NCBI GenBank assembly: GCA_034521575.1
Contig: JAXHMJ010000002.1
Location: 943,692-1,001,088 of the forward strand
Length of the DNA stretch: 57,397 nucleotides
Reading direction: 5' to 3'
DNA from: a candidate division KSB1 bacterium
Lineage (GTDB): Bacteria; Zhuqueibacterota; Zhuqueibacteria; Residuimicrobiales; Krinioviventaceae
Position numbers and translations under genes: made by a program. The notes beneath the pieces were generated by a model, which saw nothing but the letters and a program-made list of their open reading frames with translations, was not told the origin of the DNA and searched no databases. Below are positions 4,412 through 57,397 of this stretch, one piece after another (position 1 is the stretch's first letter; every line of letters starts with the position of its first letter).

Positions 4412-6042
4412 ATGTTTTTCAAAATAAATATTTTGATTACCGCGAGCATGATTATCTTTATGCAATGCTCAGACAGGCATCAAGAACAGTCCGTTAAAAA
4501 ACCAGTTTTTGGCGGAATCCTGAAAACAGCCTGTCTGGCCTCCATTGAAACCCTTGATCCCCAGCAATTAATATTTAAAACCGATTACAAAGCAGCCTCA
4601 ATTGTGTACGAAGGCTTGACCACATTTGTCGGCGACTGCGATGAACCCAAGCCTTGTCTGGCTGAGAGCTGGGCCCTGAGCAGTGACGGCAAAAAGCTGA
4701 CATTTTTTCTGCGTGATTCGGTATTTTTTCATAATGATCCTTGTTTTCCGAACAGCAGAGGCCGGCGGCTGTGTGCCGATGATGTCATTTATACATTCCA
4801 TCGACTGGCTGACGCTCGAACCCAATGCCTTGAATACAGTATGTTTGCCGGAAAGATAATCGGTATCGATGACTATCATACCGGAAAGACCAAGCATATA
4901 TCCGGGATTGTAAAAAATGACAGTCTCACAGTTACGTTCATGCTGACCCGACCTTTTGCTGCATTTTTCAAGTATCTGGCGACACATATTTGCTATATCG
5001 TTCCGCAGGAAGCAGTAACCTATTATGGAGACTCGTTTTCACACCATCCCGTCGGAACCGGCGCCTTTCGGCTAAGCCGCTGGCAGCAGCTAAAAACCCT
5101 TTACTTTGAGCGGCATTCCAATTATTGGAAAAAAGACAACTATGGCCGGCACTTGCCGTATCTGGACTCTATACATCTACACCTGATTTCCCGGCCGGTT
5201 ATGGTTATCTCTGAACTGTACAAAGACAATCTTGATCTTGCCACTCTCAATCAAAAGCAATTCGATCAGCTTGTAAACCAGGACAAACTGCATGAACAGC
5301 ATTTTATGATCCAGGCCACTCCTTCCTATAATATTCGCTTTTTTGCTTTTTCTCTGAACAAAACAGGCAAGGCGACCCTTAAACCTGATTTAAGACAAGC
5401 GATTGCTTGCGGTTTTAACCGGGAGGAAATTCTAAATTCTCTAAATACAACCCCGGCACAGACTTTTGTCCCGGCAAAGATGCTCAGGACCAGCGAGACA
5501 ACATGGTACACGTATGACCCGCGTAAAGCCGAACTTTTAGTAAAAAATTCCGGGTATGCAGGAGAACAATTTTGTATTGCCTCCAATATAGAGACAGAAG
5601 AAGTGAATCAGCTGCAGCTTGATTGTCTGCAATTGGGTTTAAATGCCGAGCTCTGCGTTCAAAAATCAGATTATTACAGCTGGGTATTCAAGGAACGTCC
5701 TGTTCTTTTCCGGGTAAGTTTTCAACCCAACTATCCGGATCCGGAAGCTTACTATAACCTTTTTTATTCCAAGATATTCAGTTGAATATAAGCGGTTATC
5801 AAAACAAGACGTTTGACCGCCTGTTTGAATCCAGTCTCAGTGAAACGGATTCGCTTCACCGATTGTCACTTTTTTCAGATATGGAAAAGCTGCTAAAGCG
5901 TGATGTCCCCGTACTTTTGTTAACAACAGAGCAGTCGGTCTACCATATCAGAAACACAAACGTCAACGGTTTTCGAATAAATTTCACTATAGAAGACTAT
6001 TCGCAAATCTGGTTGGAAAAGCATGATGAAAACCCGTTATAA
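4412..6042 (+). CDS. Peptide/nickel-type ABC solute-binding lipoprotein (SBP_bac_5), frameshifted near 5780
   Basis: A family 5 solute-binding protein of the dipeptide/oligopeptide/nickel type. The N-terminus (ATG 4412; a TTG at 4403 is possible) is a lipoprotein signal with lipobox IFMQC, so the protein is tethered in the envelope. Family landmarks include LDPQQLIFKTDYKAA, LAESWALSSDGKKLTFFLRD, DDVIYTFHRLAD, HPVGTGAFRLSRW and DLRQAIACGFNREEI. The frame stops with TGA after YSKIFS at 5785, and the family C-terminus resumes one base back (ISGYQNKTFDRLFES to QIWLEKH, ending 6042). The repaired length is about 543 residues, normal for the family, so this is one gene with a one-base loss. No permease or ATPase genes follow. 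Instead a histidine kinase start overlaps its end, so a sensing role is likely. Confidence 0.85.
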
Positions 6043-7752
6043 ACTCAACACCCAAATTCAGCCTGTTCCTGACTGGATTTACAATGGTTCTGTTGATTAG
6101 TGTTTTATCATTTATTTATTTCAATCACATCTCATTAATCAAAAAAAAAGCAGAGCGTGAATTTATATAATTATCATACCCGCTTCCAGAATGAATTCCA
6201 GGCGCTGCTGCACGATTGTAAACTTGAAATGTATCCTCTTTTATATTCAGTCCCTCCCTCTGCCAATGAATTAGACGCTTTTATCACAGCCTATCCTATA
6301 AAGTACATCTCTCTTACAATGGGTAGCCCGGAATCCAGAGCAGTGCGGATTTCACCTGTGAAAATCTACGGGGGTGAGATTATATCAAAAATAGATACAT
6401 TGGACTTTATCAATTCCAGTCCGCCCCTGAACCGCGACCGCAGGTCTATTGATATTCACTTTATGCACCCGGCGGACAGCAGTATGCATATTTTGGCCTC
6501 TGTGGCGCTTGATCATATTGTGGAACAAATTCTAAACAGTCTGCAGCTTCCTCCGATCTATACTTACTTTCTAACAAATTCAAACTATACCATTCTGCAT
6601 TCCAACAGCATACACAATATTGGCAGCCAGTTCGATCAAATTGTTGATAATCGCGAAATATTTGCCGCTCATTCCGGTTTTTCATCTGAATACGCATGGC
6701 AAAGCTCTGAATTGCCTTATGGACTGGTTTTGTTTTTGCAAAAAGACCTGAAACCGGAATTCGCTGAATTGCACAGAAACCTGATCGGCCTGCTTGTTTT
6801 CATCCTGTTGCTTCTCCTGACTGTTTTGCTAATTGTCAGGATAATGGCTGGAAAGCTGGCAGCATCCCTGCAGGAGATAACTCGCGTCACTCAGCGAGTC
6901 TCGCATGGAGATTTCAGTCAAACAATTAAACTGCAGCGCCGGGATGAACTGGGAGAGCTGATCATGACATTCAATCAAATGGTGGATCGCCTGAATAAAA
7001 GTTACCAGGCACTCGAAAAAACCAATATAGCCCTTGAACAAAGTTTTTCCGAACTGACACGTACACGGGCTGAACTTTCTCAAAAACAAAGACTTGCGCT
7101 TGTCGGAGAAACCCTGTCAAAAATTTCTCACGAAATACAGAACAAAATCGGCGGTGTCTCCATTTGGGTGCAGAATCTAAAGATTATGGCAGCAGAGAAT
7201 CCCACTATCAGCCTGTATACTTTAGAAATAGAACAGTCTCTTGATTCTTTTATGCAAATGCTGAGCAATTTTAAACGTTTTTATCGGGAACCCTCTTTAA
7301 ATGTGACTCTGATTGATGCTGCGGATCTCGTCAGTGATGCAATATGGCCGTTTATAAAAGACGCTGAATCCAGAAATATCAAACTCAAAACGCATATCAA
7401 AGACCGGATTGACATCCGCGCTGATCAAGATCAAATGCTGGATGTGCTGTCCAATCTGATTATGAATGCCTTGTACTTTTCATCAGACGGAAGCGCCATA
7501 AAATGTACCGTCACCCGCAATGATGGCTATTGTAAAATAACGGTTTGTGATGACGGCCCCGGCATCCCGCCCGGTGACGAAATCCAAATCTTTCATCCGT
7601 TCTATACCACAAAAACGAGCGGCAGCGGCCTGGGTCTGGCCATTGCATCCTCTGTCATCAAGGCCCATAAAGGCAGCATAACCGTTCATAATGAGCCCGG
7701 CCATGGAGCCTGTTTCAGTTTATTTTTGCCGCTTGAAACGAATAAATCCTAA
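6023..7752 (+). CDS. Membrane sensor histidine kinase (HAMP, HisKA-like, HATPase), N-terminus frameshifted twice
   Basis: The intact frame from 6157 covers an extracytoplasmic sensor region (~200 residues), a transmembrane helix (NLIGLLVFILLLLLTVLLIV), HAMP, a short coiled coil and a kinase core. The H-box is SKISHEIQNKIGG with His at residue 325 of this frame. HATPase motifs are present: N-box NLIMNALYFS, G1 DDGPGIP, G2 SGSGLGLAIA. The first transmembrane helix lies upstream in other frames: ATG 6023/6026 gives MKTRYKLNTQIQ, then LFLTGFTMVLLISVLSFIYF one frame on, then the kinase frame. Each of the two shifts looks like one surplus base. The 6023 start overlaps the end of the solute-binding gene, so ligand-loaded binding protein may signal through this kinase (inference). 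Its partner regulator starts 15 bp downstream. Confidence 0.85.
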
Positions 7753-7766
7753 CTTTTGGACCAATT

Positions 7767-9137
7767 ATGCATATTTTGATAGCAGAAGATGACACTGCAA
7801 TCCGCAAAGGCATTGCTGTTTTTATGAAACATAAAAACTATGACGTTACATCCACAGCTGACGGACAAGAGGCATTTAACCGCTGTAGGAAAAATCCACC
7901 CGATGTTATCATTTCGGATTTAAAAATGCCCGGAATGACCGGGATTGATTTACTGGACAAACTCGCTGAAAAGGAATTGCACATTCCGGTTATTATCATT
8001 ACCTCTTATGCGACTGTTAAAAATGCAGTAGAGGCCATTAAAAGAGGGGCGGAAGATTATCTGACCAAACCTCTCGATCTGGAAGAGCTGCATTTAAAAA
8101 TCAAACGTATTCAGCGTAAAATAAATTTAGAGGCAGAAAACCGTAATCTGCGAGCAAGTCTAAAACGACACGAAAACCCGGACATGATCGGACACAGCCG
8201 TGTCATGCAGCAGCTGCAACAATTGATTCTGCACATCGCCCGGGATCCTGATATACCGGTCATGATTTACGGTGAAAGTGGCACCGGTAAAGAATTGGCA
8301 GCTCGCGCGGTCCACAACAACAGCAGCAGAGCCGGTTCACCGTTTATCGCAGTCAATTGTGCAGCGCTCCCTGATAACCTGCTGGAAAGTGAGCTGTTTG
8401 GATACTGCCGCGGTGCTTTTACGGGTGCGATGGCAGATAAACCCGGTTTTTTTCAGACTGCGGGATCTGGCACGCTTTTTCTGGATGAAGTCAGTGAAAT
8501 GAGTGCACATATGCAAGCCAAACTACTGCGTGTGCTGCAGGAACATGTAATTTATCCGTTGGGCAGCAGCAGTGAAGTACCAGTCCAGGCGCGGGTGATC
8601 GGAGCTTCCAACCGCGACCTGACAGAAATGCTACATCAAAAGACATTCCGTGAAGATCTGTATTACCGGATGAATGTCATGGAGATCACCGTTCCTCCGC
8701 TGCGCAGCCGCAAAGAAGACATTCCCGTTTTACTCGAGTTTTTTATAAAGAGATATAAACGCTCTTTACCCGCCTTTAACCTTACCGCAGATGCGATGAA
8801 TGAACTGCAGTCTTATCACTGGCCCGGCAATATCCGCGAACTTGAAAACCTGACACGCAGATTGCTGCTTCTTTGCAGTGGAAGCAAAGTTTCTTCCCTG
8901 GATCTGCCGTTTTCAGTGAAAACACATCATCACAATGACTGGAACGAATTCCTGCAACGGCCGAATATCAAGACGGCCTTACAGGAAATCACCGACAAAT
9001 TTGAGCAGCGTTATCTGTATTTCCATTTGCAGAAACACGGGGGAAATATTTCTAAAACAGCAGAGGAAATTGGTTTATCACGTGTGGCGCTGCATCAAAA
9101 AATAAAACGATACAAGATAACTGTTAACTCCGGTTAA
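7767..9137 (+). CDS. NtrC-family sigma54-dependent response regulator
   Basis: A 456-residue REC-AAA+-HTH regulator. The receiver has the acidic pair near residues 7-9, the phospho-acceptor D51 (IISDLKMPG), T/S in IITSYA and the conserved Lys in YLTKPLD. The AAA+ domain has Walker A GESGTGKE at about 169-176. The sigma54-contacting loop GAFTGA is at about 216-221, followed by GTLFLDEVSEM and ASNRDL. The C-terminus (residues ~425-455) is a Fis-type helix-turn-helix (ISKTAEEIGLSRVALHQKIK). It should activate sigma54 promoters after phosphorylation by the kinase encoded just upstream. A candidate target promoter lies 190 bp downstream (9327-9341). All key residues are intact. Confidence 0.95.
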   Translation: MHILIAEDDTAIRKGIAVFMKHKNYDVTSTADGQEAFNRCRKNPPDVIISDLKMPGMTGIDLLDKLAEKELHIPVIIITSYATVKNAVEAIKRGAEDYLTKPLDLEELHLKIKRIQRKINLEAENRNLRASLKRHENPDMIGHSRVMQQLQQLILHIARDPDIPVMIYGESGTGKELAARAVHNNSSRAGSPFIAVNCAALPDNLLESELFGYCRGAFTGAMADKPGFFQTAGSGTLFLDEVSEMSAHMQAKLLRVLQEHVIYPLGSSSEVPVQARVIGASNRDLTEMLHQKTFREDLYYRMNVMEITVPPLRSRKEDIPVLLEFFIKRYKRSLPAFNLTADAMNELQSYHWPGNIRELENLTRRLLLLCSGSKVSSLDLPFSVKTHHHNDWNEFLQRPNIKTALQEITDKFEQRYLYFHLQKHGGNISKTAEEIGLSRVALHQKIKRYKITVNSG

Positions 9138-47716: not shown

Positions 47717-48976
47717 TCAGTTCAGAGAATCACGAGCCGCGGCAGTCACAATATCGTCCGAAGTAATTTTATTAAGGATCAGAATCTCGGTGTTATAGGC
47801 GGTCTTGTCAATCCCGGTGACGCGAAACAGCGCCTCAAAATACTGCGGAATCTTGCCGTATTTCTGCATGAGCATGTCATTCATGGGTTTGCGCATGGAC
47901 AGGGACGTCATAAACTTTGAGATTTCCGGCGCACCGAGAGAATGGTAGGACGCGATAATAAAGATCGAATTGTTATCCGGCCCCGGCAGCTTGAGCGCCA
48001 GAACCAGGTCCTCATTGGGTCCGGGTGAATGCAGCGTGGTTTCGAACACCTGTCTTTTTCCACTCTCCGGATCGGTATAAAATACCTTGTGCGGTGAAAT
48101 TTCGAAATCAAAATTGGATTTCAACAGGGTGTGTTTCAGCTTGTACAGTGTTTTAATGCTGCCCAGAAACAGAATATGATATTCATCCAGGATCTGAGGA
48201 CTGATCTCGGATGACTTGCGCAGTATGGGACGTTTGTGCACGGAATAAAAAAGTTCCAAGACCGGTGGCAGACTCCAGATGCTGTGATACGGGAAATACG
48301 GCTCATTGGTCACCTGATAGGTCACCCCCGGACGCCGTTTGCGGTACGCCTCAAAGTCTTGCATTGAATTGACTTTGGGATGCCGCATGGCAATAAATTC
48401 CTCATATTTTTCACTGTACTCGTCAAAGAAAAAATGATTCCCCAGTATAACCAGAATCGATTTTTCTGAACTCAGATACTCTTGCCAGACCGGATCAGAC
48501 TCACTCAGCACCGTATAAGCATCAATATCCTGTTCAAGGCTTTGATTCTGCTGCCAGAGCAGAAAAACAAGCGCGCAGAGCGCAGCAATGATCAGCCAAT
48601 GATAATATGTTTTCAGCACTGAAACAATATTTTTGGGATGATAGATACTCTCTACATTGGGAACAAATTTCGCCTCATAATGCCCCTTGGGAATCCGCAG
48701 TCGATACTTGTCTTTCCGGCCTTCACTGTAATAATAACTCTGCAGTTTTTTTCGTAGCGTATAAATATGTGACCGGACGGTGGTGTCTTCGGCAGGGTTA
48801 AATGAAGAGTCTTTGCCAAAGACATCAATGGCAATCGTGGTTTCTTTTGGAGCCTCTCCCTCACTGGATGCGTGAACCAGGTAACGGAGAAACTGCTGAT
48901 AAATTTTAGAGTGGGAAAATTCCTGACTGTTTAATATCTTTTCAAGACTCTTTTTATATTTGTAATCAAGGCCCAT
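47717..48976 (-). CDS. Membrane-anchored ToxR-like winged-helix regulator
   Basis: A 419-residue regulator. Residues ~1-105 are a winged helix of the OmpR/ToxR class: FLRYLVHASSEGEAPKETTI, IDVFGKDSSFNPAEDTTVRS, HIYTLRKKLQSYY, and YRLRIPKGHYEAKF. This form (lKe..I...VFGr..) is typical of membrane regulators in Acidobacteria and related phyla. A single transmembrane helix follows (YHWLIIAALCALVFLLW, ~residues 127-144), then a periplasmic domain of ~270 residues with no recognised family (ILVILGNHFFFDEYSEKY, EDLVLALKLPGPDNNSIFII). DNA binding inside and sensing outside is the natural reading. It is divergent from the pectin operon and shares its 328-bp regulatory region, so it probably controls that operon. 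Confidence 0.82.
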   Translation of the reverse strand: MGLDYKYKKSLEKILNSQEFSHSKIYQQFLRYLVHASSEGEAPKETTIAIDVFGKDSSFNPAEDTTVRSHIYTLRKKLQSYYYSEGRKDKYRLRIPKGHYEAKFVPNVESIYHPKNIVSVLKTYYHWLIIAALCALVFLLWQQNQSLEQDIDAYTVLSESDPVWQEYLSSEKSILVILGNHFFFDEYSEKYEEFIAMRHPKVNSMQDFEAYRKRRPGVTYQVTNEPYFPYHSIWSLPPVLELFYSVHKRPILRKSSEISPQILDEYHILFLGSIKTLYKLKHTLLKSNFDFEISPHKVFYTDPESGKRQVFETTLHSPGPNEDLVLALKLPGPDNNSIFIIASYHSLGAPEISKFMTSLSMRKPMNDMLMQKYGKIPQYFEALFRVTGIDKTAYNTEILILNKITSDDIVTAAARDSLN

Positions 48977-49304
48977 ATGCTTTCAATCTCTAAAACAGCG
49001 GCGGTGACAATTAAGATGGATAAAAAAATTCCTGAACCGGTGAAGCTGTTCGAATGTAATAGTTTCGTGCCATAAATGCAAGACTTTAACAGGCGTTACC
49101 GATATTTTTTTATTGAAACGTATAATATCTTTAATAACCTTTGTATCAGGAACATTTTCGGTAAAGACAGCCCGTTCTAGTCTGTTGATGGATGTTGTCT
49201 AATGTTGTTCACTGTTTTTCACCGTTTATTACTTTTATTTAACGGACAAAACCTGTTTATTATAGTGTAATTTAAATACCATAAACCTAACGCGAATCAA
49301 TCCT
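48977..49304. other. Regulatory region between ToxR-like gene and pectin operon
   Basis: A 328-bp spacer between divergent genes. It contains the 10-bp phased repeats at 49183-49232 (separate entry) and AT-rich tracts downstream of them. No strong -10/-35 pair was fixed. Confidence 0.5.
49183..49232. promoter_or_regulatory. Five 10-bp phased TGTT direct repeats (candidate operator)
   Basis: Five abutting 10-mers: TGTTGATGGA, TGTTGTCTAA, TGTTGTTCAC, TGTTTTTCAC, CGTTTATTAC. All share GTT at positions 2-4, four begin TGTT, and the last three end in AC. The spacing of one helical turn places every copy on the same DNA face, as for tandem OmpR/ToxR-type winged helices. A sixth weaker block, TTTTATTTAA, follows to 49242. 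The site ends 72 bp before the GH28 start. Confidence 0.65.
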
Positions 49305-50729
49305 ATGAAAACCCTCCTCAACAAACGAATTTATCTACTTACACTGGGTCTGTTCGTGCTGGTTTCCTGCGCAGGCACACCCTCGCCGACCACAGGCTGG
49401 GACCAGGTATCTGAGATTCTGGAACAGATCAAACCGCCTCAATTTCCGGAACGCTCGTTTGACGTGACCGACTTTGGCGCTCAAGGAGACGGGGTCACCG
49501 ATTGCACAGAGGCATTTGTGCAGGCTATTGCAGCCTGTCATGATTCGGGCGGCGGCCGTGTCATTGTACCGCAAGGCAAATATCTCACAGGCGCGATCCA
49601 TTTAAAAAGCAATGTCAATCTGCATATCAGTGATGGTGCTACCATACTCTTTAGCCGGAATCTTGAAGATTATTTGCCGGTGGTTTACACCCGTTTTGAA
49701 GGTGTTGAATGTATGAACTATTCACCACTCATTTACGGATATAATCTGGAAAACATTGCCCTCACCGGCGAGGGTACTCTGGACGGTCAGGCGGATGAAA
49801 CACACTGGTGGTCATGGGCAAAAAAACAGGATCATGGTTGGCAGGAAGGTATGCCGCACCAAAAGGCGGATCGCGATAGACTGTTTCAGATGGGTGAAGA
49901 CAATGCACCGGTGCAGGAACGCGTGTTCGGTCCAGGACATTATCTTCGGGTCAATTTTATTCAGTTTTATCGCTGTAAGAATATCCTGATTGACGGTCTG
50001 ACTCTGAAACGCTCTCCCATGTGGGAGATCCATCCGGTTTTAAGTGAGAATATCACTGTCCGCAATGTAACCATCGACTCGCACGGGCCGAACAACGACG
50101 GCTGCAATCCGGAGAGCAGTAAAAATATCCTGATTGAGAACTGTTATTTTGATACCGGCGATGATTGTATTGCCCTGAAAGCCGGACGAAACGGTGACGG
50201 CAGGCGCGTGGACACACCCACTGAAAATGTAATTATCCGCAACTGCCGTATGAAGGACGGACATGGCGGTGTGGTTATCGGCAGTGAAATGACCGGCGGC
50301 TGCCGCAATGTGTTTGTCGAGGATTGTGTCATGGACAGCCCTAATCTGGACCGCGCCCTGCGCATCAAAACCAACTCGCTGCGCGGCGGTACGGTGGAAC
50401 ATATATATATGCGCAATGTCAGGATCGGTCAGGTGGCAGACGCCATCCTGCGCGTATATTTCCATTATGAAAACGGAGATGCGGGCGACTATACGCCGGT
50501 GGTGCGCAACATTCATTTGAAAAATGTAACCAGTGAAAAAAGCAAATATGCGCTGCTTTTGGAAGGGTACGAACGATCTCCGATCACCCATATCTATCTG
50601 GATTCCTGTAAATTTAACGGTGTCGAGCAGGGCAATATTCTGAATCATGTCAAAGACCTGAGACTCTCAGAGGTCAAAATCAACGGTGAACCGATGACGG
50701 TTCCTGAAGAAAATGCCGAAAGGATCTAA
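49305..50729 (+). CDS. GH28 polygalacturonase-type lipoprotein
   Basis: 474 residues. Signal peptide with lipobox VLVSCAG gives an envelope lipoprotein. A right-handed beta-helix follows with the GH28 active-site set: NNDGCNPES (263-271, Asp265), DTGDDCIALK (Asp286 and Asp287), GHGGVVIGSE (His320) and RIK (Arg353, Lys355). The start motif FDVTDFGAQGDGVTDCTEAF is classic. The NND instead of NTD form is common in bacterial exo-acting members. It cleaves galacturonan or rhamnogalacturonan links of pectin by inversion. It is the first gene of the operon; the next gene starts inside its 3' end, so they are coupled. Confidence 0.93.
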   Translation: MKTLLNKRIYLLTLGLFVLVSCAGTPSPTTGWDQVSEILEQIKPPQFPERSFDVTDFGAQGDGVTDCTEAFVQAIAACHDSGGGRVIVPQGKYLTGAIHLKSNVNLHISDGATILFSRNLEDYLPVVYTRFEGVECMNYSPLIYGYNLENIALTGEGTLDGQADETHWWSWAKKQDHGWQEGMPHQKADRDRLFQMGEDNAPVQERVFGPGHYLRVNFIQFYRCKNILIDGLTLKRSPMWEIHPVLSENITVRNVTIDSHGPNNDGCNPESSKNILIENCYFDTGDDCIALKAGRNGDGRRVDTPTENVIIRNCRMKDGHGGVVIGSEMTGGCRNVFVEDCVMDSPNLDRALRIKTNSLRGGTVEHIYMRNVRIGQVADAILRVYFHYENGDAGDYTPVVRNIHLKNVTSEKSKYALLLEGYERSPITHIYLDSCKFNGVEQGNILNHVKDLRLSEVKINGEPMTVPEENAERI

Positions 50730-52068
50730 TATCAAACCATCATTTTCACATTGCTGTATCGTCTTTTTTCTGATATGCCTGACTATAACAGCACCGGCGA
50801 TCTCCCGCATTCCGGCATTTCCGGGGGCTGAAGGTTTCGGACGCTACACAACCGGCGGGCGCGGCGGACAGGTGTACTATGTGACCAACTTGAATGACAA
50901 CGGTCCCGGCAGTCTGCGTCAGGCCGTTGAAACTCCCGGCAAACGAACCATCTTGTTTCGTGTTTCAGGACACATTAATCTCAACTCTCCGCTCATCATC
51001 CGTGAAAGCGGTCTGACCCTTGCCGGTCAGACCGCTCCGGGTGATGGTATCTGTATAAAGAATTATCCTGTTTTAATTAAAGCGGACAATATTATCATCC
51101 GCTACATAAGGGTGCGTCCCGGCGACAAAGCTCATGTGGAAACCGATGCCATCAGCTGTGTCGGTCAGAAAGACATACTTGTCGATCATTGTTCGTTCAG
51201 TTGGGGCAACGATGAAGTGGCATCATTCTGGAACAATGAGAACAGTAGCGTCCAGTGGTGCCTGATTTCCGAAAGTTTGCACCATTCAGCGCATCATAAA
51301 GGTCCGCACGGATACGGCGGTATCTGGGGTGGCATGGGCGCCAGTTTTCATCATAATTGTTTTGCACACCATGCCAGTCGTACCCCCCGTTTTAACGGCA
51401 GTCGGCATCAATCCAAACCGGTTCGCGAACTGACGGATTTCCGCAACAATGTCATTTATAACTGGGGCTTTAACAGCAGCTACGGCGGCGAAGGCGGACG
51501 TCAAAATATCATCGCAAACTATTATAAAGCCGGACCGGCTTCGCGGCACCGGAACCGGATTGTAGAGCCGTACGATGCCAAGGGCAAATGGTATGTGGCG
51601 GAAAACCGGGTACATGGTTTCCCGAAAGTTACAGCAGACAACTGGGCCGGCGGGGTTCAGGGCAAACATAAAAACAGCGCCCGGGTTGACACACCCTTTC
51701 AGGTCGCGCCGGTGGCGACACAGACACCTGAACAGGCATACGAACAGGTACTGCAAACCTGCGGCGCCATTTTTCCGAAACGCGACAGTCTGGACAAACG
51801 CATCATCCGGGAAATACGCACCGGCACCGCCACGTATGGCGGCAAGTATGGCGAACAAAGCGGTATTATCGATTCACAAACCCAGGTCGGCGGCTGGCCG
51901 GAGCTGCACTGCGATCCCGCTCCCCCGGACCGGGATCAGGACGGACTTCCGGATGTGTGGGAAGACACGCATGGTCTCGATCCGGACGAACCCGCCGATT
52001 CCCGCAATCTGACACCTGACGGCTATACCGTTCTTGAACAGTATTTAAACAGTCTGGTAAACGAATAG
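50713..52068 (+). CDS. Polysaccharide lyase family 1 pectate lyase
   Basis: 451 residues with signal peptide (IVFFLICLTITAPAIS). The mature protein opens with AFPGAEGFGRYTTGGRGGQV, the hallmark of bacterial PL1 enzymes, followed by GPGSLRQAVE, AGQTAPGDGICIK, IIRYIRVRPGDK and DHCSFSWGNDE; the DAISC/VDHCS region supplies calcium ligands. Further on are HGYGGIWGG, HHNCFAHHASRTPRFNGS and DFRNNVIYNWGFNS. A C-terminal DRDQDGLPDVWED loop resembles dockerin or thrombospondin type 3 calcium-binding repeats. No T9SS domain is present, so it should remain periplasmic. The start codon overlaps the end of the GH28 gene by 17 bases. It cleaves polygalacturonate by beta-elimination. Confidence 0.92.
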   Translation: MPKGSNIKPSFSHCCIVFFLICLTITAPAISRIPAFPGAEGFGRYTTGGRGGQVYYVTNLNDNGPGSLRQAVETPGKRTILFRVSGHINLNSPLIIRESGLTLAGQTAPGDGICIKNYPVLIKADNIIIRYIRVRPGDKAHVETDAISCVGQKDILVDHCSFSWGNDEVASFWNNENSSVQWCLISESLHHSAHHKGPHGYGGIWGGMGASFHHNCFAHHASRTPRFNGSRHQSKPVRELTDFRNNVIYNWGFNSSYGGEGGRQNIIANYYKAGPASRHRNRIVEPYDAKGKWYVAENRVHGFPKVTADNWAGGVQGKHKNSARVDTPFQVAPVATQTPEQAYEQVLQTCGAIFPKRDSLDKRIIREIRTGTATYGGKYGEQSGIIDSQTQVGGWPELHCDPAPPDRDQDGLPDVWEDTHGLDPDEPADSRNLTPDGYTVLEQYLNSLVNE

Positions 52069-52113: not shown

Positions 52114-53465
52114 ATGAGAAAACATTTGCTACTATTGAGCCTTTTACTGGCGACAGGGCTTGTAGCACAAACCTACGTCGCACCGGGCGACGGCACCCTC
52201 TCCCAGGCGATCACAGATGCCGCGGACGGTGATATCCTCGAGCTGGTTCCGGGCGGTGAATACACAGAATCCAGCGCTTATACATTTGGTACGATTGTCG
52301 ATAAAAGGCTGACCATTGATGTTGAAAGCACAGAAGAAGAACCGGACAAGGCAAAATTGCAGATCCTCACTCCACCCGACGGTGAAAGTACAATCCGCTT
52401 GTTTGAGGTCGGGGACAATGCTTCCCTGACCCTGCGCAATCTGGAACTGGACGGAAGTTATGCCGGTGAAATGAGCGCTGAATATGCAGTTACGTTTTAT
52501 CTTGGCGAATTTCCCGCTCCCACCACGGTCAATAACATCCGTGTTGAAAACTGCTATATCCACGATTTTGTCAGTGATGTTCTGGCTGCCGGTGGTTCTG
52601 AAATGCGCGGCAATCTGATCGTCGATTCAACGTTTGTGGACAATTGTGTGGTGGAACGCACCGGCACGTCTGTCTATTACAAATACTGCGGCGCCCATTA
52701 TATTCAAGTGACCAATTCAACGTTTAACACCATTTCCAGTTACGGATTCCGCGTCGCCGGACCTGCAGAAAGCAACCTGCCGGAACACACTCCTTCAGCC
52801 CTGATCGATCATACCACCTGGTACAATATCGGCACCGAAGACGGGCGTGAGATCATTCTCTGCGCCAAGGGGCCGCATCTGGGACAATGGAAAGTCAGCA
52901 ACAGCATTCTGGTAAAACAGATCAACAAGGACAAGACCGTCATCAACATCAAGGAAACTTTGACCCCGGATCAGGCCGTGATCAATAATATTTGTATGTG
53001 GGATGTAGGAAACCGCACCTGGCGCGATCATCCGGTCTCGGATACACTGAACGTGGATCCTGAATTTGCAGGCCCGGAGAACGGCGATTTCACCCTGCCG
53101 GAAGGCTCACCAGCTGCTTACATTTGGTGAAAACGGCGGCGCCATCGGCGATCCCCGCTGGGCTATTCATGCAACCGGTGTTGAAACCAACGCAGCCTCC
53201 GAACGGATTCACCCTGGACCAGAATTATCCCAATCCGTTCAATCCCGTGACCTCGATTTCCTTCACTCTGGACAAGGCCGGGCACACACGTCTTGCGATT
53301 TATGATCTGCTCGGACATGAAATCAAGGAACTGATTAATCAGACAATGTCAGCCGGTACGCACCGGATCCGTGTAGATGCAGAGAGCCTGCCCACGGGCG
53401 TCTATCTGTATCAGTTGCAGTCCGCCGGTCAAAGCATGACCAAAAAAATGACCGTTTTAAAATAA
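52114..53465 (+). CDS. DUF4957/DUF5123-like beta-helix protein with T9SS domain (two frameshifts)
   Basis: Starts at ATG 52114 behind AAGGAGG; signal peptide MRKHLLLLSLLLATGLVAQ. A beta-helix with DGTLSQAITDAADGDILELV, IRVENCYIHDF, DSTFVDNCVVERTG, VSNSILVKQ and INNICMWDVG matches the DUF4957 and DUF5123 pair seen in pectin and alginate loci. Its typical end, TFGENGGAIGDPRWAI, is read one base on from 53115, and the T9SS type A domain (GFTLDQNYPNPFNP to TKKMTVLK) one base on again from about 53190. Both shifts act as one surplus base. With both repaired this is a single secreted protein of ~450 residues. It probably binds or cleaves pectic polymer at the cell surface. Confidence 0.85.
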
Positions 53466-53479
53466 AACAGAATCAATCG

Positions 53480-53504
53480 CCGGCCGGTTTGAATCGCCGG
53501 CCGG
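53480..53504 (+). other. GC-rich intercistronic hairpin
   Basis: CCGGCCGG (53480-53487), 9-nt loop, CCGGCCGG (53497-53504), formed by a 17-bp direct duplication of AATCGCCGGCCGGT. It sits between the DUF4957-like gene and the second PL1 gene. There is no T-run, so it looks more like an mRNA-stability or processing hairpin than a terminator. Confidence 0.5.
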
Positions 53505-53544
53505 TATACGCAACGGGGGGCAACATTGGGAAAGGTAAGAGCTG

Positions 53545-55215
53545 ATGAGAATATTGAGGGTCTATAGTCTTTTAATAGCTATTTTTTTGATACCGTTATA
53601 CGGACACACCCGCACACTGGCTTTTCCCGGCGCTGAGGGCGCAGGACGTTTTACGCGCGGGGGCCGCGGCGGTGAGGTTTATATTGTCACCCATCTCGGC
53701 GACAGCGGACCCGGCAGCCTGCGAGAAGCCATTGAAGCCAGCGGACCGCGCACTGTTGTGTTTCAGGTTTCAGGGACGATTGAACTGGAATCCGATCTGA
53801 AAATTAAAAGTCCATATATCACCATTGCCGGACAAACCGCGCCCGGCGACGGGATTTGTATCAAAGATCACACACTATATGTCAATCACAACGAGGTGAT
53901 CATTCGGTATATGCGGTTTCGCCTCGGCGATGAATCCGGCGAAGAATCCGATGCCGCATGGGGCCGGTATTGCAAAAATGCAATCCTGGATCATTGTTCC
54001 GCCAGCTGGAGTGTGGACGAAGCGTTTTCATTCTACGGGATTGACAGCCTGACTATTCAGCGCTGTCTGGTTTCCGAAAGTCTGTACTATTCACATCATG
54101 AAAAGGGCGCACACGGATACGGCGGTATTTGGGGCGGAGACAATGCCAGTTTTCATCACAATCTGCTGGCACATCATTCCAGCCGCAATCCCCGGTTCTC
54201 CGGCGGCAGCACATCACTGTGCGTGAATGTCGACTTTCGCAATAATGTCGTCTACAACTGGGGCTTTAACAGCGCCTACGGCGGTGAAGGCGGCACCATC
54301 AATATGGTTGCCAATTATTTCAAAGCCGGACCGGCCACCAAAGAGTCAGTGCGCGACCGGATTGTCAATCCTTCCGGAATCGAAGGACGATGGTATGTTG
54401 CAGAAAATGTGGTGGAAGGATTTCCTGACATCTCCGCGGACAACTGGTCAGGCGGTGTGCAGGGCGGTTCAGCGGTCAAATCCATTATCGGCGTCGATAC
54501 GCCCTTTCCCTTTCATATTGAAACCACCCAAAGCGCCGAAGAAGCCTATGCAGACGTATTGCAGGATGTGGGTGCAAACTTTCCCACCCAGGATGCAGTG
54601 GACAGCCGTATTCTGAGCGAAGTGGAAAGCGGTACAGCCACCTATGAAGGATTTTATTACGAAGCGGCTCAAGGATTTTCCGACACCTCTGTGGTGCGCG
54701 GCATTATTGATTCCCAGGATCAAGTCGGCGGATGGCCGATACTCAGCAGCGCAGCAGCTCCTGCAGATTCGGATCAGGACGGCATGCCGGATGACTGGGA
54801 ATCAGATAACGGACTGGATGCCAATGACGCATCCGACCGCAATCTCACGGATGCAAGAGGCTATACCATGCTCGAACGGTATATCAACGGCCTGGTTTCG
54901 AATCCCAGCGGCATCGCCGATTCTCCGGATTTGCCCGAGTCATTTACATTGCTGAAAAATTATCCCAATCCGTTCAATCCCAGCACACGGATTGAATTTA
55001 ATTTGCCCCGGGCAGACTATGTTGAGCTGAATATTTATAACATGCGCGGCCAGCTGGTGAACACCCTGATCCGGGAGCTTTGCCAGGCGGGAGTGCATAC
55101 AGCTGAATGGAACGGAACACATGCCAACCATCAACACGTGGCATCCGGATTGTATTTCGCTGTATTAACACACGGCAACAAAACCCGTGTTATCAAAATG
55201 CAATTGCTGCGGTAG
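53545..55215 (+). CDS. Polysaccharide lyase family 1 pectate lyase with T9SS domain
   Basis: 556 residues; signal peptide MRILRVYSLLIAIFLIPLYG. The catalytic domain parallels the first PL1 (AFPGAEGAGRFTRGGRGGEV, IAGQTAPGDGICIK, LDHCSASWSVDE, HGYGGIWGGDNASFHHNLLA, RNPRFSGGS, DFRNNVVYNWGFNSAYGGEG). A DSDQDGMPDDWES calcium-type loop follows at about residue 412. The last ~85 residues are a T9SS domain (NYPNPFNPSTRIEFNLPRAD to TRVIKMQLLR). This copy should be surface-exposed while the paralogue at 50713 stays inside the envelope: a division between outer and periplasmic pectate cleavage. No lesions are seen. Confidence 0.93.
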   Translation: MRILRVYSLLIAIFLIPLYGHTRTLAFPGAEGAGRFTRGGRGGEVYIVTHLGDSGPGSLREAIEASGPRTVVFQVSGTIELESDLKIKSPYITIAGQTAPGDGICIKDHTLYVNHNEVIIRYMRFRLGDESGEESDAAWGRYCKNAILDHCSASWSVDEAFSFYGIDSLTIQRCLVSESLYYSHHEKGAHGYGGIWGGDNASFHHNLLAHHSSRNPRFSGGSTSLCVNVDFRNNVVYNWGFNSAYGGEGGTINMVANYFKAGPATKESVRDRIVNPSGIEGRWYVAENVVEGFPDISADNWSGGVQGGSAVKSIIGVDTPFPFHIETTQSAEEAYADVLQDVGANFPTQDAVDSRILSEVESGTATYEGFYYEAAQGFSDTSVVRGIIDSQDQVGGWPILSSAAAPADSDQDGMPDDWESDNGLDANDASDRNLTDARGYTMLERYINGLVSNPSGIADSPDLPESFTLLKNYPNPFNPSTRIEFNLPRADYVELNIYNMRGQLVNTLIRELCQAGVHTAEWNGTHANHQHVASGLYFAVLTHGNKTRVIKMQLLR

Positions 55216-55268: not shown

Positions 55269-57397
55269 ATGTTTCACAGGAGAATAATTGCAAAACAATC
55301 AATCATCTTGATACTATCCATTCTATTGTTATTGATGATACAAACGGCTGCACAGGCCCAGAACCGGAGCCGTATTTCCGGTACGGTACGGGATGCCAGC
55401 ACCGGCGAACCCCTGGCAGCGGCGAATGTGATGATAGAAAATACCAATCTGGGCGCTGCCGCGGATCTACAGGGCCGGTTCATCATCATTAACGTTCCGG
55501 TGGGTCAATACCGTGTCAAAGCCACCATGATGGGATATGAAACCCGGATTAAAACCGGTGTTATGGTCTCGATGAACCGGACCACCAACCTTGATTTTAT
55601 GCTGAAGCCTTCGGTGATGCAGGGCGAAGAAGTTGTGGTCATGGCGGAGCGAGATGAGACTGCACAAAGAAGTTTCAAATACGCAGCTGGTGATCTCGGA
55701 TGTACAGCTGCAGGATGCCACCGGTATCCGTGAAATCAACTCGTTCCTGACCAAACTTCCCGGCGTTTCAGAACAGAACGGCTATCTCTCTATCCGCGGC
55801 GGTTCCGCTGACCAGACCGGTATGATGGTGAACGGTCTGGCCTACAACAATGCAGCAGTGGGCAATGCAGAAACCAGCATACCGCTGAGCGCTATTGAAC
55901 AGGTCTCGCTGCTGTCCGGCGGATATAATGCAGAATATGGAAATTTTCGGTCCGGTCTGATCAATGTGACCACCAAAAGCGGCAATAAAGACGGGTATCA
56001 TGGAACATTCAGCTATTCGCGCAACACCGATCATCTTCGCCGATTCGGTCCCTCCTTTTACGATCCGCACAGTCCGGCGCTGCGTCCGTTTCTGGATCCG
56101 GACGTTGCTTTTGTGGGCACCCGCGATGCATGGGCAGATGATCCTTATCTTCAGGAGCAGCATCTGAGTTTTAGCGGGTGGAATCTGGCTGCACAGATTT
56201 ACAATATGGGCAAAGAACCGGAAGATCATGCCACACCCCTGGATTATTATCTGCTGGGCACCTGGATGCACATGGCTGAACCTGACTATGAAGGTCTGGC
56301 GGAGCAGGGATATACGGTGTCCGAGGAACACAAAAGACTGTTTGCCGAACATCAACGCCAGGAAGGCGGTGTGGACTGGAACTTTGACGGCGGGTTCGGC
56401 GGTCCTTTGCCGCTGATCGGCAAGTATATCGGAGACGCGACGTTTTACATCTCTAATAACTCGAGAGAGCGCAATTACATCATGCCGGTCACCCGTTCGA
56501 ATGAAAAAACATATACCACGCTGGCCACCGTCAAAGCCAATCCGACTGAAAGTCTGTCACTAACTTTTAATGGTCTGCATAAATACCAAAAAGGCATGAG
56601 TCCCATCCGGCCACCCTGGGGAGATTTTCCGGACGCCAGCCGGGAAGGCGGCTTTATGCCCATTAACAACATTAAATACATTCACAAAAACCCGGATTAC
56701 TGGTACGATCAACCGTTTTATCCCATTTTGGAACAGAATACTCTGATGGGCGGATTGACGATCAATCATATACTCAACTCGTCTATGTTCTGGGAACTGA
56801 CCCTGAGCGCTATGAATATCCAGAACGACTCGCCTACCGGAAACACACGCGACAATACCGTACTGACTTCATTTCGGTCCGTTTCCGGTGTCTGAAATGC
56901 CTTACGGTAAACTGCAGTACGGCCTGAATATTCTCGACGGATTCGAGTACCCGAGTTATGATGCGCTTCCGGGCGTTCCGAGACGTTTCCGGCGCAAGGA
57001 AGGTGATCTGTACGACAATACCAACACAAGCCAGTATAGAGCCAAATTTGAACTAAATTCGCAGATCGGTCACCATCACTATGTCAAAGGCGGCTTTGAA
57101 TACAATTATATCGATCTGGATCACGAACTCTGGGAAAAATGGAAACGAAAATTATTACAACGTTTATGAATTCAACTATCACCGCACACCCAGCCAGACC
57201 GGTGTTTTCATTCAGGATCAAATCAGTTATTCGAATATCATCGCCAATCTTGGACTTCGTTTTGATTACTATTACGGCGGCGGGGGCCAGTGGCCCACGG
57301 GTGACCCGTTTGCCACAGAAGTATTCACGCCGCAGGCCTTTGCAGAGGATTCAGTGCTGTTTGAATATCTGGAACGCGGCAAATCCTATATCTGGGA
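55269..57397 (+). CDS. TonB-dependent receptor of the pectin locus, three frameshifts, cut by window end
   Basis: Starts at ATG 55269 behind GAAAGGAAAA; signal peptide (IIAKQSIILILSILLLLMIQ, AQA). Then a CarboxypepD_reg-like domain (ISGTVRDASTGEPLAAANVM, LQGRFIIINVPVGQYRVKAT), a plug domain (INSFLTKLPGVSEQNGYLSI, RGGSADQTGMMVNGL, SGGYNAEYGNFRSGLINVTT) and the barrel. The frame changes at about 55660, 56885 and 57145. Each change looks like one surplus base, and homology continues after each (RLHKEVSNTQLVISD; SEMPYGKLQYGLN; YYNVYEFNYHRTPSQTGVFI). The gene runs off the right edge, so its end is not seen. It should import pectin oligomers released by the upstream enzymes. No SusD-like partner precedes it. 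Confidence 0.85.

Follow-up and report, generated by a model that had tools for sequence, protein, structure and literature searches.

What switches on the pectin genes of a candidate division KSB1 bacterium, and could the short direct repeats in front of them be the switch? The window, i.e. the whole stretch of DNA analysed here (57,397 nt), contains a 328-bp gap between a regulator gene on the minus strand (47717-48976) and a GH28 gene on the plus strand (49305-50729), the two neighbours named in the original prediction. Within this gap, at 49183-49232 on the plus strand, are five abutting 10-bp direct repeats (NGTTNNTNAC), reading TGTTGATGGA TGTTGTCTAA TGTTGTTCAC TGTTTTTCAC CGTTTATTAC. The blocks had been described as sharing GTT at positions 2-4, with four starting in TGTT and three ending in AC, and the sequence agrees exactly (5/5, 4/5 and 3/5). 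The count of five blocks stood as well, but a sixth, degenerate unit in the same phase, CGTTCTAGTC (49173-49182, plus strand), had been missed; with it, six GTTs run at period 10 from 49174 to 49226. Dinucleotide shuffling of the intergenic region, 5000 times over, gave no run of at least five at period 10 for any trinucleotide, and the best score for five 10-bp blocks (39, vs 30.9 +/- 1.4 in shuffles) was reached in none of 1000. The conserved core comprises the three promoter-proximal blocks, 49203-49232, with the pattern GTTnnTnAC; most orthologues, too, have degenerate blocks upstream of it. Because the row recurs beside relatives of the regulator and before a second pectin cluster, it is very probably a switch that turns on pectin use in these bacteria.

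The genes beyond the repeats, all on the plus strand, are those of pectin breakdown and uptake. The first, at 49305-50729, encodes a GH28 polygalacturonase-type enzyme (PF00295, E 1.3e-31) with a BT4155-type galacturonidase as its best NCBIfam match, below cut-off. It is followed by a PelZ-like, pectate-lyase-type protein (50713-52068; NCBIfam NF041900, E 6.8e-34, below cut-off) and, at 52114-55215, by a DUF4957/DUF5123 protein and a second pectate-lyase-like protein with a secretion tail, identified from open reading frames and domain matches. A SusC-like TonB-dependent receptor gene occupies 55269-57397 and runs off the window; it is split over several frames, with the CarboxypepD_reg and Plug domains in separate ones, so that the copy at this locus may be decaying into a pseudogene or the assembly may be imperfect (indels). 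A SusC-like TonB receptor (CarboxypepD_reg, Plug, barrel), a GH28 enzyme and pectate lyases adjoining a regulator give the locus the functional make-up of a PUL. Two paralogues of the regulator in the same genome (G000:C2:601886-603110 and G000:C5:871030-872246) are interrupted by stops or frame changes and seem to mark loci of this kind in decay.

The regulator, the proposed binder of the repeats, is a protein of 419 aa described here from its reading frame, domain searches and an AF2 model (pLDDT 88 overall, mostly about 90 in the winged helix); a stand-alone model of the 103-aa winged helix made without an alignment reached pLDDT 50 and was left out. Residues 1-106 (48659-48976, minus strand) form a predicted OmpR/PhoB-like winged-helix DNA-binding domain, with the recognition helix at residues 66-83 (VRSHIYTLRKKL...; 48728-48781, minus strand). 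The nearest folds are PrrA (Z 7.8), RstA-DNA (7.4), SaeR (7.3) and PhoB-pho box (6.8); these values (range 6.5-7.8) are middling, and the best rows for residues 1-105 are nearly all OmpR/PhoB. They come from the VIA second look, Foldseek alone having given no match to the regulator model at E <= 0.001, and a search of the regulator profile against PDB sequences gave no match either. The Pfam family Trans_reg_C (PF00486) is reached at 16.0 bits, below its cut-off of 26.2, and is weakly matched by 18 of 20 homologues (best E 6e-6). The OmpR class of the winged helix, as originally predicted, thus rests on the fold and the recognition-helix pattern: the predicted fold agrees with it, but the family cut-off is not passed. 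No receiver, kinase, AraC, sigma or other signalling domain was matched in the regulator with Pfam or NCBIfam.

Between the DNA-binding and C-terminal domains, sequence and model alike give one long helix with a hydrophobic core, residues 125-154 (48515-48604, minus strand), which includes a single predicted membrane span (WLIIAALCALVFLLW) and would anchor the protein in the membrane. From the domain order, the C-terminal domain (residues ~155-409, 47750-48514, minus strand; more narrowly residues 160-409, 47750-48499) would then be periplasmic and signal-sensing. The claim that this domain matches no recognised family holds for Pfam, where no match was found, but it does have relatives in fold: the BcsB flavodoxin-like domain (Z 12.4, rmsd 2.9, 168 residues) and the N-domain of GH67 alpha-glucuronidase (Z about 9.5). 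In BcsB the flavodoxin-like domain is paired with a carbohydrate-binding-like domain (PMC11379886). Judged on the model, the sensor domain is possibly a new periplasmic glycan receptor domain.

Of the 82 genomes of the phylum, 35 contain homologues of the regulator at E <= 1e-40. There are about eight in the bacterium's own genome, some of them broken, so that the possibly new one-component sensor that had been proposed is no one-off. Calditrichaeota and candidate division KSB1 MAGs account for most of the named relatives, and outliers come from Ignavibacteria, Bacteroidota and other groups; most homologues are divergent from SusC-like TonB receptors or glycan-degradation genes. The pattern GTTnnTnAC, derived from the last three blocks of the window, was counted in the 450 bp upstream of 62 homologues, the window being excluded. 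Forward matches numbered 69, vs 7.6 +/- 2.8 in shuffles, and were present in 39 regions, vs 7.1. Spacing between matches was 10 bp for 18 pairs, 20 bp for 8 and 11 bp for 4, with 0.01 pairs expected from shuffles at 10-11 bp. The reverse strand has 30 matches, likewise more than background, a result of the partial palindromy of units such as GTTAATAAC.

In a maximum-likelihood tree of 63 regulators, that of the window falls into a 17-member clade (support 99/98) drawn mostly from Calditrichota/KSB1, and wherever the flank is long enough, a clade locus has GH28, pectate lyase or a pectin-type TonB receptor on its divergent side. All 17 regulators of this pectin clade are preceded by units spaced at exactly 10 bp. 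With a thresholded unit matrix, 15 of the 17 regions score above shuffles of themselves (p <= 0.01), and for the window region p is <= 0.005 when the window is left out of the matrix; the matrix is partly circular for the other clade members, for which reason the count upstream of the 62 homologues is taken as the main test. An unthresholded EM chain scan of the units drifted into AT-rich sequence and was replaced by this matrix. Period 10 stands out in the clade at z = 35, vs 3-6 for periods 9, 11 and 12, in a test that used a 400-bp cut; the operator of L094, at 417, falls outside the cut and is seen in the matrix scan. A typical clade operator has three strong units, near NGTTTTTCAC, and ahead of these one to three degenerate ones, for example TGTCGAATCC. 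Only two good units are present at L016, L017, L018, L096, L100 and L102, and the unit match at L016 is weak (p = 0.14). Outside three close pairs (L016/L017, L094/L095 and L099/L101), pairwise BLASTN of the clade intergenic regions aligns essentially the operator only, over 20-50 bp, and this amounts to phylogenetic footprinting, beyond mere relatedness. The original prediction hung on whether orthologous intergenic regions conserve the repeats, and the answer is strongly positive. The clade is also marked in the protein, S69-H70 in the recognition helix being present in 17/17 of its regulators and in 0/46 of the others.

Searches with the operator also led away from the regulators. The sequence GTTnnTnACnGTTnnTnAC has three matches in the 5.26-Mb host genome, two overlapping ones in the window and one at C1:435819, which ends ~80 bp before the gene of a 994-aa TonB receptor. 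The cluster there runs TonB receptor, outer-membrane-type protein, GH28, pectate lyase, with no regulator nearby. This second site (G000:C1:435799-435837) has five phased units, TGTTGAGTAA TGTTGATTAA TGTCGAAAAC AGTTTTTCAC CGTTTTTAAC, and the two sites remain the best in the host genome when up to 3 mismatches are allowed over three units. BLASTN of the two intergenic regions against each other gives a single significant match, window positions 49183-49239. The TonB receptor gene of the second cluster (L151 7920-10904) is intact, unlike the copy in the window, and its GH28 (L151 12873-13676) is without ~190 internal residues of the window enzyme, matching residues 4-231 and 422-461. Across the 82 genomes of the phylum, the two-unit sequence GTTnTTnACnGTTnTTnAC has 14 sites: 9 beside regulator homologues, 2 before TonB receptors (G000:C1 and G054:C21) and 3 unrelated ones (G044, G002:C61 and G070) near neither. 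Two near-identical sites with one mismatch in G036 likewise have no link to a regulator or TonB receptor. Every genome with a site of three exact units also has a pectin-clade regulator.

Related repeats precede regulators of sister clades. An eight-member sister clade has units like GTTAATAACCG at 11-bp spacing (z 12.9 for period 11), and another has GTTCTTAACGGTTATTAT at 10 bp (z 7.5). Such repeats suggest, at the level of sequence, an operator code that covaries with the regulator, and they argue that the regulator itself, and not a third party, would read them. Upstream of L026, L025, L085, L091 and L132, regulators of a sister clade, are 11-bp tandem repeats (CGTTAATAACC GGTTAATAAC), after which TTG often occupies the -35 position. 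At one locus of G054 (L158 2109-11232), a sister regulator (6660-7880, minus strand) and a LacI-like gene (5359-6402, minus strand) are found with SusC-like receptors on both sides. The cultured Flexithrix dorotheae DSM 6795 (L105) encodes a distant homologue preceded by tandem-like repeats, GTTAAAAAACAGTTTTTAAC, and is a possible experimental host.

At sites beside regulators the repeats point toward the enzymes or receptor and away from the regulator gene. In the window the last repeat is abutted by a -35-like hexamer, TTTTAT (49233-49238, plus strand), which belongs to a TTTA(A/C)T-like series in 19 aligned sites whose first position is T in 19/19. A 17-nt spacer separates it from a -10-like hexamer, TTTATT (49256-49261, plus strand). 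Across the 19 sites such hexamers (TATATT and relatives) lie 23 nt after the last repeat, where the mean -10 score peaks at 2.53, a value unmatched at any offset in 1000 shuffles. The promoter pair of the window is ambiguous, as a consensus scan favours TTAACG/TATAGT a few bases downstream, with TATAGT at 49261-49266. By the predicted hexamers, the operator abuts the -35 of a sigma-70-type promoter. This geometry fits PhoB-type activation, and by analogy with PhoB an activator would contact polymerase at a weak -35.

The repeats are thus likely to be the operator of the divergent membrane-anchored regulator, through which it would activate the pectin genes here and, in trans, at the second cluster. 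In the proposed mechanism multiple DNA-binding domains, in probably two to three dimers, would bind head to tail along the 10-bp units on one face of the helix, and the last of them would touch RNA polymerase at the weak -35 hexamer. Transcription of the GH28, pectate lyase and TonB-dependent receptor genes would be activated in this way and not repressed. The predicted periplasmic domain presumably detects an oligosaccharide derived from pectin, or else a partner protein that signals its presence, and the same regulator would act on the site at G000:C1:435799-435837. Clade conservation, the second pectin cluster and the predicted OmpR/PhoB-like fold all favour the role first proposed for the repeats, that of a putative operator for pectin genes read by the adjacent regulator.

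The same protein could bind the same operator as a repressor, keeping the pectin promoter shut until it is freed by an inducer. The operator does abut the predicted promoter, and membrane-bound winged helices such as ToxR also can repress, as stated in the passages cited (PMC6733452). The repeats, however, stop upstream of the -35 and -10 hexamers and cover neither, and the -35 hexamers are poor (TTTAAT-like), like those of activator-dependent promoters. Given also the PhoB-type geometry, repression is unlikely. A different objection is that the sites belong to an unlinked transcription factor of the pectin genes, the neighbouring regulator being a bystander. The link between regulator and operator is drawn from neighbourhood, that is, from synteny and clade association, so another factor of the same genes could own the site, and a trans site without an adjacent regulator exists. 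Against such a factor, the tandem repeats that sister clades carry in this divergent region are similar without being identical, one set having the 11-bp period (z 12.9), the recognition helix (S69-H70) differs in step with the repeats, and sites of three exact units keep to genomes with a pectin-clade regulator; a bystander is accordingly quite improbable.

T runs that recur every 10 bp might also make intrinsically curved DNA or a UP-like element that acts without a sequence-specific protein. The most conserved positions, however, are a G at -19 (2.29 bits) and C at -11 and -1 (2.28 bits), whereas conservation is lower at several middle positions (0.1-0.8 bits in the outer units), and the motif has no further recurrence elsewhere in the host genome. 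As for chance periodicity in AT-rich intergenic DNA, runs of at least five at some period of 7-24 did appear in 4/1000 shuffles of the intergenic region, but chance does not account for conservation in 17 orthologues and at the trans site. Both were rejected, on conservation and on the G/C positions that hold most of the information: curvature is very improbable, and the probability of chance is negligible. Activation by the adjacent regulator through the repeats is the preferred reading.

Literature searches on PUL regulators in KSB1/Calditrichota, on COG3710 beside TonB receptors and for the Melioribacter genome paper found nothing on this regulator family, and in the literature searched no description of glycan-locus control in Calditrichota/KSB1 was found. 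What is gained is a regulator family, a readable operator, a promoter geometry and regulon prediction from MAGs; the operator alone located the second pectin cluster. Tentatively, and with the case about balanced, the proteins may represent a family, expanded and so far undescribed, of membrane-anchored one-component regulators acting as locus-specific PUL switches in Calditrichota/KSB1 and some Ignavibacteria and Bacteroidota, each with a private 10- or 11-bp tandem operator whose unit is set by residues 69-70, and with glycan sensed via the BcsB-like domain. If the operator code holds in sister clades, the repeats and two recognition-helix residues could reveal which substrates uncultured bacteria are specific for, and the sensor domain would become a candidate for a new class of glycan receptor in the periplasm.

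Like the PUL regulators of Bacteroidota (SusR, hybrid two-component systems, ECF-sigma/anti-sigma), the window protein adjoins a SusC-like TonB receptor and glycan-degrading enzymes and has many paralogues per genome, often one per locus. It belongs to another protein family, however, having no histidine kinase, receiver, AraC or sigma domain; the first three, which make up the Bacteroidota HTCS, were unmatched in it. The predicted fold of its sensor domain is shared with the BcsB flavodoxin-like and GH67 N-domains, both from glycan-handling proteins, at ~5-11% sequence identity, and ligand binding does not follow from the shared fold. With the ToxR-like regulators (CadC, ToxR, TcpP, Salmonella ChiR) it shares a cytoplasmic winged helix of OmpR/PhoB fold, one membrane helix (both predicted here) and the union of sensor and regulator in one protein with no receiver or kinase domain. 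It differs from them in scoring below the PF00486 cut-off and in its C-terminal domain of ~250 aa with a BcsB-like flavodoxin fold, a case not found for ToxR-like proteins in the literature searched. In CadC, the residues credited with sequence-specific DNA contacts include His66 and Gln70 (in a numbering independent of that of the window regulator), and the CadC site is described by AT-rich patches, unlike the strict 10-bp tandem array of the window, at least in the passages cited (PMC5430869). Salmonella ChiR controls a polysaccharide-degrading enzyme (PMC10109510) and on that likeness is the nearest functional analogue among ToxR-like proteins. The operator itself resembles pho box and ArcA sites, with tandem direct repeats about one helical turn apart and a variable number of degenerate outer units, and presumably one repeat unit serves each winged helix, as for OmpR/PhoB response regulators. 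The period is exactly 10 bp here and not 11, and the putative binder is predicted to be membrane-anchored, whereas those response regulators are phosphorylated and cytoplasmic. ArcA sites, with 2-5 direct repeats at 11-bp spacing (PMC3798270), are the nearest documented operator architecture.
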